From assembly GCF_017309385.1 (NCBI RefSeq), contig NZ_JAFJMJ010000001.1, positions 1 through 64,000 of the forward strand: DNA of 64,000 bases. Reading direction: 5' to 3'. The stretch's first letter is position 1, and each line of letters starts with the position of its first letter. The stretch is from Amycolatopsis sp. 195334CR (GTDB lineage Bacteria; Actinomycetota; Actinomycetes; Mycobacteriales; Pseudonocardiaceae). A program made the position numbers and the translations under genes. Positions 25,671 through 29,255 of the stretch are shown piece after piece. The notes below the pieces were generated by a model. That model searched no databases and was not told the origin of the DNA. It saw only the letters and a list, made by a program, of their open reading frames with translations.

Positions 25671-27062
25671 CTACAGCCCGTACTCCTCCAGCAACCGCAG
25701 CCAGACCTCGCTGATCGTCGGATACGCCGGCACGGCGTGCCACAGCCGCCGCAACGGCACCTCCCCCACCACCGCCACGGTCCCCGCGTGCAGCAGTTCG
25801 GCGACGTCCGGCCCGGCGAAGGTCACCCCGACGATCACCTCGCGCTCGGTGTCGACGACCATCCGCACCTTGCCCTCGTACCCGTCCGCGTGCAGCGACG
25901 AACCGGCCACCGCGATGTCGATGTCGATCTCGCGGTGCGGCTTGCCGTCCTCGGCGGCGGTGAGGCCGACCGAGGCGACCTCGGGATCGGTGAAGACCAC
26001 CTGCGGGACCGCGGTGTGGTCGGCGGTGCTGGCGTAGGCGCTCCACGGCCCGGGGTCGATCCGCTCCCCCTTCGCCCGCGCGGCGATCACGTCGCCGACC
26101 GCCCTGGCCTGGTACTTGCCCTGGTGGGTCAGCGGCGCGCGGCCGGTCACGTCGCCCGCGGCGTACAGCCAGCCACCGTCCACACCGGACACCAGCCCGG
26201 AGTCGTCCACGGCCAGCGTGTCCCCGTCGGTGAGCCCGGCCACGGCCAGGCCGAGCCCGTCGGTGGCCGGCCGCCTGCCGGTCGCGACCAGGAACTCGTC
26301 CGCGAGCACCTCCCCGCCGCCGGTCAGCTCGATCCGGATCACACCATCCTTTTCGGACACCTGCGTGGCGCCGGAGTTCGCGTGCACCCGGACGCCGTCC
26401 TCGCGCAGCCCGGCGGCCACCAGGTCACCGGCGAACTCCGGGTACCGCGGCAGCGGGCGCTCGCCGGTGATGATCAGGTCCACCTGCGAGCCGAGCTTCG
26501 CGAAGGCCTGGGCCATCTCCACCCCGACCACGCCCCCGCCGAGCACGGCCAGCCTGCCCGGCACCTCGCTCGCCGAGGTCGCCTCGCGCGAACCCCAGGT
26601 CCGGACGCCGTCCAGGCCGGGGATGCGCGGGGTGCGCGGCACGCTGCCGGTGCACACGACCACCGCGTGCCGCGCGCGCAGCACCTGGTCGCCGACGGTG
26701 ACCTCGCGCTCGCCGGTGATCCGCCCGGCGCCGCGCACCGGCACGATGCCCGCGCCCTCGGCCCAGCTCACCTGGCCCGCATCGTCCCAATGGGACGTGA
26801 AGGAGTCGCGGCGGGCGAAGACGGCGGCCGGGTCGACCCGGTCGCCGACCGGCACGCCCGGCAGCCGCGCCGCCGCGGCGAGCGCGATTCCCGGCCGCAG
26901 CAACGCCTTGCTGGGCATGCAGGCCCAGTACGAGCACTCCCCGCCGTACCGCTCCGATTCCACCAGCGCGGCGGTCAGCCCGCCCCGGACCGCACGGGCC
27001 GCGACGTTCTCCCCGACCGGGCCGGCGCCGATCACCACGACGTCATAACCGTTGTCTGCCAT
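25671..27062 (-). CDS. Pyridine nucleotide-disulfide oxidoreductase, class I flavoprotein
   Basis: A 463-residue FAD enzyme of the lipoamide dehydrogenase/mercuric reductase family. It has the FAD motif VVVIGAGPVGENVA at residues 8-21, the redox-active pair Cys43 and Cys48 in GGECSYWACMPSK (canonical relatives have [13 protein letters not shown]), a second Rossmann motif GGGVVGVEMA and the ATGRRPATDG segment. The usual C-terminal His-x4-Glu is replaced around HAVPAYPTISEVWL. The substrate is uncertain; it is not the lipoamide enzyme by sequence. ATG 27062 is used because upstream residues are not family-like. A perfect inverted repeat overlaps the start. Confidence 0.87.
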   Translation of the reverse strand: MADNGYDVVVIGAGPVGENVAARAVRGGLTAALVESERYGGECSYWACMPSKALLRPGIALAAAARLPGVPVGDRVDPAAVFARRDSFTSHWDDAGQVSWAEGAGIVPVRGAGRITGEREVTVGDQVLRARHAVVVCTGSVPRTPRIPGLDGVRTWGSREATSASEVPGRLAVLGGGVVGVEMAQAFAKLGSQVDLIITGERPLPRYPEFAGDLVAAGLREDGVRVHANSGATQVSEKDGVIRIELTGGGEVLADEFLVATGRRPATDGLGLAVAGLTDGDTLAVDDSGLVSGVDGGWLYAAGDVTGRAPLTHQGKYQARAVGDVIAARAKGERIDPGPWSAYASTADHTAVPQVVFTDPEVASVGLTAAEDGKPHREIDIDIAVAGSSLHADGYEGKVRMVVDTEREVIVGVTFAGPDVAELLHAGTVAVVGEVPLRRLWHAVPAYPTISEVWLRLLEEYGL

Positions 27063-27164: not shown

Positions 27165-27824
27165 GTGGCCAGGAACACCGCGGTCCAACTGCTGGACGAC
27201 ATCACGGGCGAGCCCGCCGAGGAAACGGTGCGGTTCGAGCTGGACGGGGTGACCTACGACATCGACCTGTCCGGGGAGAACGCCGACCGGCTCAGGGAAA
27301 TCCTCGACCCGTTCGTGAGCAACGGGCGGCGCACCGGCGGCCGGAAGAAGGTCGTCCGGCGGCGGGCGGTCAAGAAGGCTCCTTCGAAGAAGACGGCGAC
27401 GGCGAAGGCCGAGCCGAAGAAGGCGGCGGCAGCGAAGGCTGCCGCTCCGAAGGCGGCGGCCTCGAAGGCCACGGCTTCGAAAGCAACGGCTTCGAAAGCC
27501 AAGGCTCCCGCCGCAAAGGCCACCGCGGAAAAGGTCGCCGCCGACACGGCCGCTCCGGCGAAGAAGGCTCCTGCCAAGCGAGCTCCCGCCAAGAAGAAGA
27601 CCACCCCCGCCGCGAAGACGGCCGCGGCCAAGGCCACCCCGGCGGCCAAGGCACCGGCCGCGAAGACAGCACGGGCCACCAAGGCCGCGTCGACCGCCAA
27701 GACCGCCGAGGCAAAGGCGCCAGCCACCAAGGCCGCCGAGGCGAAGGCGCCCGCCGCCAAGGCCGCGCCGGTGAAGAAGGTGGCTCGCAAGGCTCCGGCC
27801 GTCACCTTCTCCTCGGCCGAATAG
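27165..27824 (+). CDS. Lsr2 N-terminal domain fused to histone-H1-like Lys/Ala tail
   Basis: A 219-residue predicted nucleoid protein. Residues 1-58 match the N-terminal dimerisation domain of Lsr2 (LLDDITGEPAEETVRFELDG, then YDIDLSGENADRLREIL, then the GRRTGGRKK hinge). The C-terminal Lsr2 DNA-binding domain with its RGR AT-hook-like motif is missing. Instead about 155 residues of Lys, Ala, Pro and Thr follow, like the tails of mycobacterial HupB and eukaryotic histone H1. The GTG at 27165 follows GGGAG; a TATCCT hexamer at 27122-27127 may be its -10. Roles in compaction or bridging of DNA are inferred. Confidence 0.88.
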   Translation: MARNTAVQLLDDITGEPAEETVRFELDGVTYDIDLSGENADRLREILDPFVSNGRRTGGRKKVVRRRAVKKAPSKKTATAKAEPKKAAAAKAAAPKAAASKATASKATASKAKAPAAKATAEKVAADTAAPAKKAPAKRAPAKKKTTPAAKTAAAKATPAAKAPAAKTARATKAASTAKTAEAKAPATKAAEAKAPAAKAAPVKKVARKAPAVTFSSAE

Positions 27825-27829
27825 CCGCC

Positions 27830-27875
27830 TGAAGGGTGGCTTTCCTCGCGCCCAGCACCAGGAAAGCCACCTTCA
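27830..27875. terminator. Bidirectional hairpin between Lsr2-like gene and pntB
   Basis: Arms TGAAGGGTGGCTTTCCT and AGGAAAGCCACCTTCA are complementary apart from one bulged G, with a 13-nt loop. The hairpin begins 5 bp after the Lsr2-like stop and includes the pntB stop codon on the other strand. It carries the same TGGCTTTC core as the other intergenic palindromes. Confidence 0.75.
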
Positions 27876-29255
27876 CAGCGCCTTGAGCTCCTCCACGATC
27901 GAACCGACCGAACTCTTCGCGTCACCGAAGAGCATGCTCGTCCGGGTGTCGTAGAACAGGTCGTTGTCCACCCCGGCGAAGCCCGAGCTCATCGACCGCT
28001 TGAGCACGATCACCGACCGGCTGGTGTTCACCTTCAGGATCGGCATCCCGTAGATCGGCGACGCCGGATCGGTTTCCGCCGCCGGGTTGACCACGTCGTT
28101 CGCGCCGATCACCAGCGCCACGTCGGTCTGCGGGAAGTCCGAGTTGATCTCGTCCATCTCCTTGAGCCGCTCGTACGGCACGTCCGCCTCGGCGAGCAGC
28201 ACGTTCATGTGCCCGGGCATCCGGCCGGCCACCGGGTGGATCGCGTAGGAGACCTCGATCCCCTTGCCCTCCAACAGGTCCGCCATCTCCCGCACGGCGT
28301 GCTGCGCCTGCGCCACGGCCATGCCGTACCCCGGCACGACCACCACCCGCCCGGCGTAGGCCATCTGGATCGCGGTGTCCGCCGCGCTGGTCGCGCGCAC
28401 CGGCCGCTCCGGCCCCGACCGGCCCGCGGCCACCGGCGCCCCGCCGAACCCACCGGCCACGATCGCCGGGATGGACCGGTTCATCGCCTTGGCCATCAGG
28501 TTCGTCAGGATCGACCCCGACGCCCCGACGATCATGCCCGCCACGATCAGCGCGGTGTTGTCCAGCGCCAGCCCCATCGCCGCGGCCGACAACCCGGTGA
28601 GCGCGTTCAGCAGCGAGATCACCACCGGCATGTCCGCGCCACCGATCGGCAGCACCACCATCACCCCGAGCAGCGCGGACGCCACCAGCAGCCCGGCGAT
28701 CAGCCAGCCCGACCCGGCCCCCGCCGCGATCGCCACCCCGCACCCCAGCGCGACCAGCAGCAGCGCCAGGTTCAGCGGCTGCTGCAGCTTGCCCACCGAG
28801 ACCGGCCGCCCGGTGATCAGTTCCTGGAGCTTGCCGAAGGCGATGTTCGAGCCCCAGAACGAGATCGAGCCGACCAGCGCGGAGAAGAGCGAGGCGATCG
28901 CCACGTACGCGGGTTCGTGCGCGTAACCGTCGGTCGCGTTGAACTCGACCCACGCGATCAGCGCCACCGCCCCGCCGCCGACGCCGTTGAACAGCGCCAC
29001 CATCTGCGGCATCGCGGTCATCTTCACCTTGCGCGCGGCGGGCACGCCGACCAGCACGCCCAGCACCACGCCGAGCACGATCAGGCCCCAGTTCCCCATG
29101 CCCGGGGTGAGCAGCGTGGCGACCACCGCGAGCACCATGCCCGCGGCGGCGATCCAGTTGCCGCGCACCGCCGTGCGCGGGCCGGTCAGCCCCATCAGGC
29201 CGTAGACAAAAAGGGCGAACGCGACGATGTAGAAAACCGCGATGAGCTCGGTCAC
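27873..29255 (-). CDS. pntB: Proton-translocating NAD(P) transhydrogenase subunit beta
   Basis: A 460-residue inner-membrane subunit. The N-terminal half has about eight or nine transmembrane helices of the proton channel; the C-terminal third is the NADP(H)-binding domain III, with VVVPGYGMAVAQAQHAVREM and the RMPGHMNVLLAEADVPYE segment. With PntA and PntAb it couples proton movement to hydride transfer from NADH to NADP+. The start overlaps the pntAb stop by 4 bp. Last gene of the pnt operon; its stop lies inside a hairpin. Confidence 0.95.
   Translation of the reverse strand: MTELIAVFYIVAFALFVYGLMGLTGPRTAVRGNWIAAAGMVLAVVATLLTPGMGNWGLIVLGVVLGVLVGVPAARKVKMTAMPQMVALFNGVGGGAVALIAWVEFNATDGYAHEPAYVAIASLFSALVGSISFWGSNIAFGKLQELITGRPVSVGKLQQPLNLALLLVALGCGVAIAAGAGSGWLIAGLLVASALLGVMVVLPIGGADMPVVISLLNALTGLSAAAMGLALDNTALIVAGMIVGASGSILTNLMAKAMNRSIPAIVAGGFGGAPVAAGRSGPERPVRATSAADTAIQMAYAGRVVVVPGYGMAVAQAQHAVREMADLLEGKGIEVSYAIHPVAGRMPGHMNVLLAEADVPYERLKEMDEINSDFPQTDVALVIGANDVVNPAAETDPASPIYGMPILKVNTSRSVIVLKRSMSSGFAGVDNDLFYDTRTSMLFGDAKSSVGSIVEELKAL

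Follow-up and report, generated by a model that had tools for sequence, protein, structure and literature searches.

The window, that is, the whole 64,000-nucleotide stretch of DNA analyzed here, has a GC content of 71% and carries at 27165..27824 (+) an open reading frame of 219 aa, with a GTG start and the sequence GGGAG six bases 5' of it. We read this frame as a gene for an Lsr2-domain protein that lacks the Lsr2 DNA-binding domain (DBD) and has a basic tail and a C-terminal tip. From its 5' end, the gene encodes an Lsr2 dimerization domain (residues 1-58; 27165..27344, +; PF11774; PDB 4e1p), a basic junction GGRKKVVRR (27336..27362, +), a basic Lys/Ala/Pro-rich arm of species-dependent length and composition (27363..27785, +; no predicted secondary structure), and the tip RKAPAVTFSSAE (27786..27821, +), which contains the motif P-x-[V/I]-x-F-S. 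Two genes of the opposite strand flank it and served as synteny markers. The divergent neighbor (25671..27062, -) encodes an lpdA-like FAD pyridine nucleotide-disulphide oxidoreductase (Pyr_redox_2, E 4.2e-49) and starts at about 27062, without overlapping the 219-aa frame; the convergent neighbor (27873..29255, -) encodes PntB, the NAD(P) transhydrogenase beta subunit (PNTB, E 3.9e-177). A chance or frame artefact was considered for the 219-aa frame and rejected, since both synteny and codon-level constraint hold.

The first part of the protein is that of Lsr2. PF11774 matched residues 1-58 of the whole protein over its full profile (84.4 bits, cut-off 29.6, E 4.1e-24), as the earlier note had claimed for the first 58 residues, and residues 1-60 searched alone gave an E value of 2.1e-25. 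The profile was also found in 59/59 scanned relatives, and residues 1-58 matched the N-domain structures of M. tuberculosis Lsr2 (4e1p, E 6.4e-14; 4e1r, E 1.9e-13). In the crystal, that domain is an intimate dimer with an Asp-28/Arg-45 salt bridge between the chains, and dimers join into chains via their N-terminal strands once three residues are removed (PMC3374832). D27 and R44 of the 219-aa protein correspond to Lsr2 D28 and R45. Across 97 DBD-less genome loci, the R45 equivalent was kept in all 97 and the D28 equivalent in 95, with Y or E at that position in the other 2. Judged by these residues, the DBD-less protein is likely to form an Lsr2-type dimer. The core of the dimer may differ from that of Lsr2, because the conserved Trp-51 is replaced (Tyr in 87, Phe in 8, and His in 2 of the 97 loci) and because D28 has given way to Y or E in those 2. 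Two AlphaFold models, both of low confidence (mean pLDDT 56.5 and 59.2; pTM 0.20 and 0.22), placed the N-domain elements in beta-beta-alpha order, with strands at 21-26 and 29-34 and a helix from 37. The arm had no secondary structure in the models, and neither did the tip, though confidence was ∼61-71 there versus ∼50. For the second model, Foldseek put 4e1p first, but the E value of 0.67 carries no weight by itself.

We observed no match to the Lsr2 DBD (PF23359, Lsr2_DNA-bd, which holds the RGR motif) when the 219-aa protein was scanned with Pfam profiles, nor in any of the 59 scanned relatives at E ≤ 0.01. The same profile library recovered this domain in 4/4 DBD-bearing controls, three of them from the own genome. 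Because the defining DBD was looked for and is absent, the protein is not a canonical Lsr2. The HU fold (PF00216) did not match the 219-aa protein either, and the histone H1-like profile HC2 (PF07382) gave no match to it up to E 1; HC2 matched 5/59 relatives at E ≤ 0.01, which we read as composition. What follows the N-domain is a tail, residues 63-219, of 22% Lys, 42% Ala, and 9% Pro with a net charge of +34. The two further claims of the earlier note, that the RGR domain is absent and that ∼155 Lys/Ala/Pro-rich residues of HupB/H1 type stand in its place, were thus borne out.

We then compared the tails of 60 distinct DBD-less proteins. The Arg four places past GGR[KR] in the junction was invariant (60/60). 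Beyond it, the inner arm spanned 47-330 residues and ranged from K/A-rich to R/T-rich, always with a net positive charge (+0.14 to +0.32 per residue) and with few hydrophobic residues (median 4%). Two members from genus g24 (the letter-number labels are our own handles; L137:1495-2019 and L140:1492-1959) had more Arg/Ser/Thr than Lys/Ala in the arm, with N-domain and tip kept. The arm is probably disordered. The Lys-Pro-Ala tail of HbhA is both necessary and sufficient for DNA binding and has no sequence preference, and the HupB tail, of similar type, also binds DNA (PMC10665949). In the tailed HU protein HupS, whose lysine-rich tail comprises residues 90-234, acetylation reduces the affinity for DNA (PMC11229371). 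By analogy with HbhA, the arm may bind DNA without sequence specificity and, by analogy with HupS, acetylation could control it.

The earlier note had called the tail basic and sequence-unspecific, but this does not fully describe it, as its end carries a conserved tip. All 97 DBD-less genome loci, which encode 87 distinct proteins, have P-x-[V/I]-x-F-S, as do 48/49 DBD-less database proteins (6 of all 50 database proteins being identical to locus proteins). The sole tip-less database protein, P0020, has the arm with a different end and derives from a 1,490-base contig. In the 60 distinct proteins, P-x-[V/I]-x-F-[S/T] lay near the end in every case and always with S. The [V/I] position was V in 59 proteins and I in the remaining one, and the residue after the motif was Ala in 55. 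Because these positions had been located by the pattern itself, an independent check was needed; in a MAFFT alignment of 59 proteins, P, F, and S were invariant and V was present in at least 90%. Furthermore, 36 additional regions were fetched as a test: 31 were DBD-less and all had the tip, and 5 had a DBD and none had the tip. Of these 31 loci, 27 had sequences absent from the first set of loci read, and two of the 27 (from genomes G182 and G197) also came up in the pntB-neighborhood survey described below. A pattern restricted to the last 25 residues caught 96/97 loci; the 97th, L098, has 113 residues beyond the tip Phe, and another locus, L135, has 15. Because the motif is kept in both with residues following it, the tip need not be a free terminus, and a free C-terminal degron is unlikely for the same two cases. 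The extension in L098 (L098:1501-2385) is atypical of the family and is either an assembly error or real.

The tip is not an effect of composition, because Phe is almost absent from the inner arms (3 of 9,094 residues in the 60 distinct proteins). Over 262 near-relative pairs, which are non-independent and whose arm alignments are uncertain, dN/dS was ∼0.14 in the N-domain and ∼0.19 over the last 13 residues, against ∼0.43 in the arm. Near-universal presence, together with a protein-level constraint stronger than that on the arm, makes it likely that the tip makes a specific contact. We also rejected a phospho-Thr reading, because some members have V, L, K, S, R, or M in place of the Thr of VTF.

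One of 74 DBD-bearing loci also had a similar end: the protein of L066, an uncultured-actinomycete locus, terminates in IPQVTFKAVANP, and its two database relatives P0053 and P0054 have this in common with it. These three proteins (L066:1681-2073, P0053, and P0054) are full-length Lsr2 with a DBD, which the PF23359 profile confirmed in P0053, and are normal apart from the ending IPQVTF[KR]AVANP. They carry RGRIP and a separate tip-like end, which makes it unlikely that the tip is left over from the RGRIP region of Lsr2. In the own genome, K[AV]PxVxFS searched as a DNA pattern had no site other than the 27165-27824 gene, PxVxFSA with TTC TCN codons had 7 other sites, and a looser tip pattern had 213. 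One of the 7 is the exact C terminus, PPVRFSA, of a LuxR-type regulator (L203:1497-2303). This regulator was matched in 4/40 genus genomes including the own one, and the two distant relatives end otherwise (FPAPVLFPRP...); because only the closest relative, in G004, shares the end, it is probably a coincidence.

The protein is not alone in its genome. Five PF11774 loci, 27165-27824 included, lie in the assembly (7 contigs with 9.9 Mb in all), so that separate full-length lsr2 genes, which the earlier note had considered, do exist: the other four are all DBD-bearing by sequence, three of them confirmed by profile. The fourth, L003, matches L002 at 99% identity over 405 bases. In this pair (L002:1270-1674 and L003:1501-1905, contigs C1/C2), the matching stretch covers roughly the coding region and no flank similarity was reported, which indicates a recent duplication or conversion confined to that gene. 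A single PF00216 locus was found, away from 27165-27824, and encodes a HupB with a Lys/Ala/Thr-rich basic tail in which the tip is absent. Because the genome keeps four DBD-bearing Lsr2 genes and a tailed HupB, the DBD-less protein is an added component and not a replacement.

Next, we surveyed the distribution of the gene. A whole-genome search of the genus (alignment A1), with each protein read, found it in 57/60 genomes, the exceptions being G001, G034, and G036. Within the family, 34/150 genomes and 9/46 sampled genera had it, again with proteins read; G087 passed the E value as a 35th genome and was rejected, as its locus L198 has a DBD. At order level, 25/298 sampled genomes were positive (E ≤ 1e-30, at most 11 candidates per genome scored), all of the same family, and at phylum level the window's own genome was the only one among 396 (E ≤ 1e-28, at most 8 candidates per genome scored). 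Neither sample thus yielded the gene outside the family. When residues 1-62 served as a protein query, 50 proteins came up, 49 of them DBD-less with a basic arm and one, P0051, with a DBD; the named sources were Amycolatopsis, Prauserella muralis, or an actinomycete MAG. This search took only lengths of 0.55-1.75 times the query, because of which short Lsr2 proteins were mostly left out. Among the best 80 of 550 loci in a scan of named genomes, 11 were DBD-less, all from Amycolatopsis. Of viral copies, 103 stretches fit a pattern and 0 were confirmed.

The neighborhood is kept as well. At least one of the window neighbors flanks all 66 DBD-less loci with flanks, a set that includes two copies of the window locus and in which the fetched flanks were often only ∼1.5 kb. 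Both the lpdA-like gene and pntB were present in 53 of the 66, 7 were without a pntB match, and 6 without an lpdA match. The DBD-less proteins thus look like one orthologous gene beside the lpdA-like gene and/or pntB. We also read the pntB neighborhood in 30 genomes, mostly without a family match; 23 had a pntB match, at 24 loci, and the gene was held only by L149 and L150, both of genus g24. In G001 (L143), both neighbors are kept, and a lipoate-ligase-like gene is all that separates them; at L146 of G082 (genus g24), the lpdA and pntB matches lie ∼95 bases apart. The DBD-less gene is absent from both loci. Loss is the simplest explanation of these two absences. The gene is thus dispensable. 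The lipoate-ligase-like gene adjoins pntB in L143 (L143:770-1501, Pfam-checked) and in L142, both from genus members in which the DBD-less gene was not found.

We propose that the gene encodes a nucleoid protein in which an Lsr2 dimerization domain is followed by a basic arm that is probably disordered. On the strength of the conserved key residues, the N-domain would form an Lsr2-type dimer, and it probably also mixes with full-length Lsr2 of the same cell. Each dimer would carry two long H1-like arms that, as the HbhA and HupB tails suggest, bind DNA by charge and without minor-groove reading. Such a dimer could coat, bridge, or tether DNA irrespective of base composition, a property that would fit a GC-rich genome. 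The tip would be a putative docking motif that anchors each arm to one specific partner; its P-x-V-x-F alternation would fit a short extended strand that presents Val and Phe on the same side. As no more than an analogy, the HP1 chromoshadow dimer reads a PxVxL pentapeptide of comparable pattern. A candidate receptor is the beta-sheet of the Lsr2 N-domain or, alternatively, another nucleoid or replication protein. The Lsr2 N-domain dimer may be the receptor because one full-length Lsr2 lineage carries a similar tip. Taken together, we consider an Lsr2-type dimer with H1-like arms, charge-based DNA binding, mixing with Lsr2, and tip docking a reasonably probable account of this protein.

According to a review, thick filaments arise when the (P)AKKA tail of HU is bound by the N-domain of M. 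tuberculosis Lsr2 (PMC6936261). A single chain that, like this one, has elements resembling both partners of the Lsr2-HU complex could therefore bind DNA by charge, self-associate through arm and N-domain, and enter assemblies of Lsr2 or HupB. The earlier note expected the protein to lack AT selectivity; mixed oligomers with canonical Lsr2 could restore it. We found no experimental study of the DBD-less tailed Lsr2 family. A bolder version, which we put forward tentatively and with more doubt than belief, is that of a bacterial linker whose two charge-only arms, their tips held in a dedicated partner, would fasten the GC-rich chromosome, either to itself or to some other cellular machine, independently of AT-rich silencing.

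Alternatively, the protein might be a modulator or antagonist that enters Lsr2 filaments through its N-domain and weakens or re-targets AT-rich silencing, in the way that H-NST acts on H-NS. Its N-domain is indeed common to the four DBD-bearing Lsr2 loci of the same genome, and truncated H-NS derivatives perturb bridging (review PMC6936261). However, a basic arm of 47-330 residues with a conserved tip exceeds what truncation needs, and the chromosomal neighborhood kept across genera means that the gene does not look mobile, so we regard this role as unlikely. A plain HupB/H1-like compaction factor, in which the tip would be a stability or solubility element without a partner, seems quite unlikely to us. 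The tail composition does resemble that of HupB, HbhA, and histone H1, 5/59 relatives reach E ≤ 0.01 with HC2, and the own-genome HupB has a Lys/Ala/Thr-rich tail; however, a fixed motif beside a drifting arm in 97/97 loci is unlike a generic cap, the motif persists in L098 and L135 despite the trailing residues, and the own-genome HupB tail does without it. That the arm targets RNA, polyphosphate, or ribosomes instead of DNA is very improbable: lysine-rich tails are generally not DNA-selective, but the Lsr2 domain is known from nucleoid proteins. The AKKA-bearing proteins named in the HbhA paper include the ribosomal protein RplV, but the comparable HupB and HbhA tails bind DNA (PMC10665949).

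The dimer with charged arms and a docking tip remains our preferred reading. An Lsr2 oligomerization module combined with a lysine-rich tail occurs in some members of a family to which antibiotic producers belong, and within the genus the gene is retained in most sampled genomes. In actinobacteria, Lsr2 is a silencer of foreign AT-rich DNA, and this natural domain swap raises the question of whether the DBD or the filament determines Lsr2 selectivity. With a 12-residue peptide of the tip, a possible contact between proteins of the actinobacterial nucleoid could be tested directly. In the titles and abstract openings of the open-licence papers that our searches brought up, we found no description of a DBD-less tailed Lsr2, nor of the combination of N-domain and tail, its conservation at one locus, or the tip; we also found no open-licence paper on Lsr2 in Pseudonocardiaceae.

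Among known systems, the Lsr2 proteins (M. tuberculosis Lsr2, Streptomyces Lsr2/LsrL, and MSMEG_1060) share with the DBD-less protein the PF11774 N-domain and the D28-R45 pair; unlike them, the latter is without the PF23359/RGR minor-groove domain and has a basic arm and a conserved tip instead. The nearest studied Lsr2 relative with another DNA preference is MSMEG_1060, an M. smegmatis paralogue that occupies the whole nucleoid (PMC8125055). A long Lys-rich tail is found in HupB and HupS as well, but the N-domain here is that of Lsr2 and not HU, and the own-genome HupB is without the tip. Similarly, HbhA of M. tuberculosis bears its Lys-Pro-Ala tail on an unrelated N-terminal part, a coiled coil, whereas the DBD-less protein has the Lsr2 fold. 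In the Lsr2-HU complex, the contact between N-domain and (P)AKKA tail is made by two proteins; here, similar elements lie in one chain (PMC6936261). H-NST and other DBD-less H-NS derivatives resemble the protein in having the oligomerization domain of a silencer without its DBD, but differ from it in fold. To our knowledge, derivatives of the H-NST type have no basic arm and no tip. Overall, the parts, an Lsr2 N-domain and an H1-like tail, are known already, and the DBD-less protein probably works like a tailed nucleoid protein built on an Lsr2 base.
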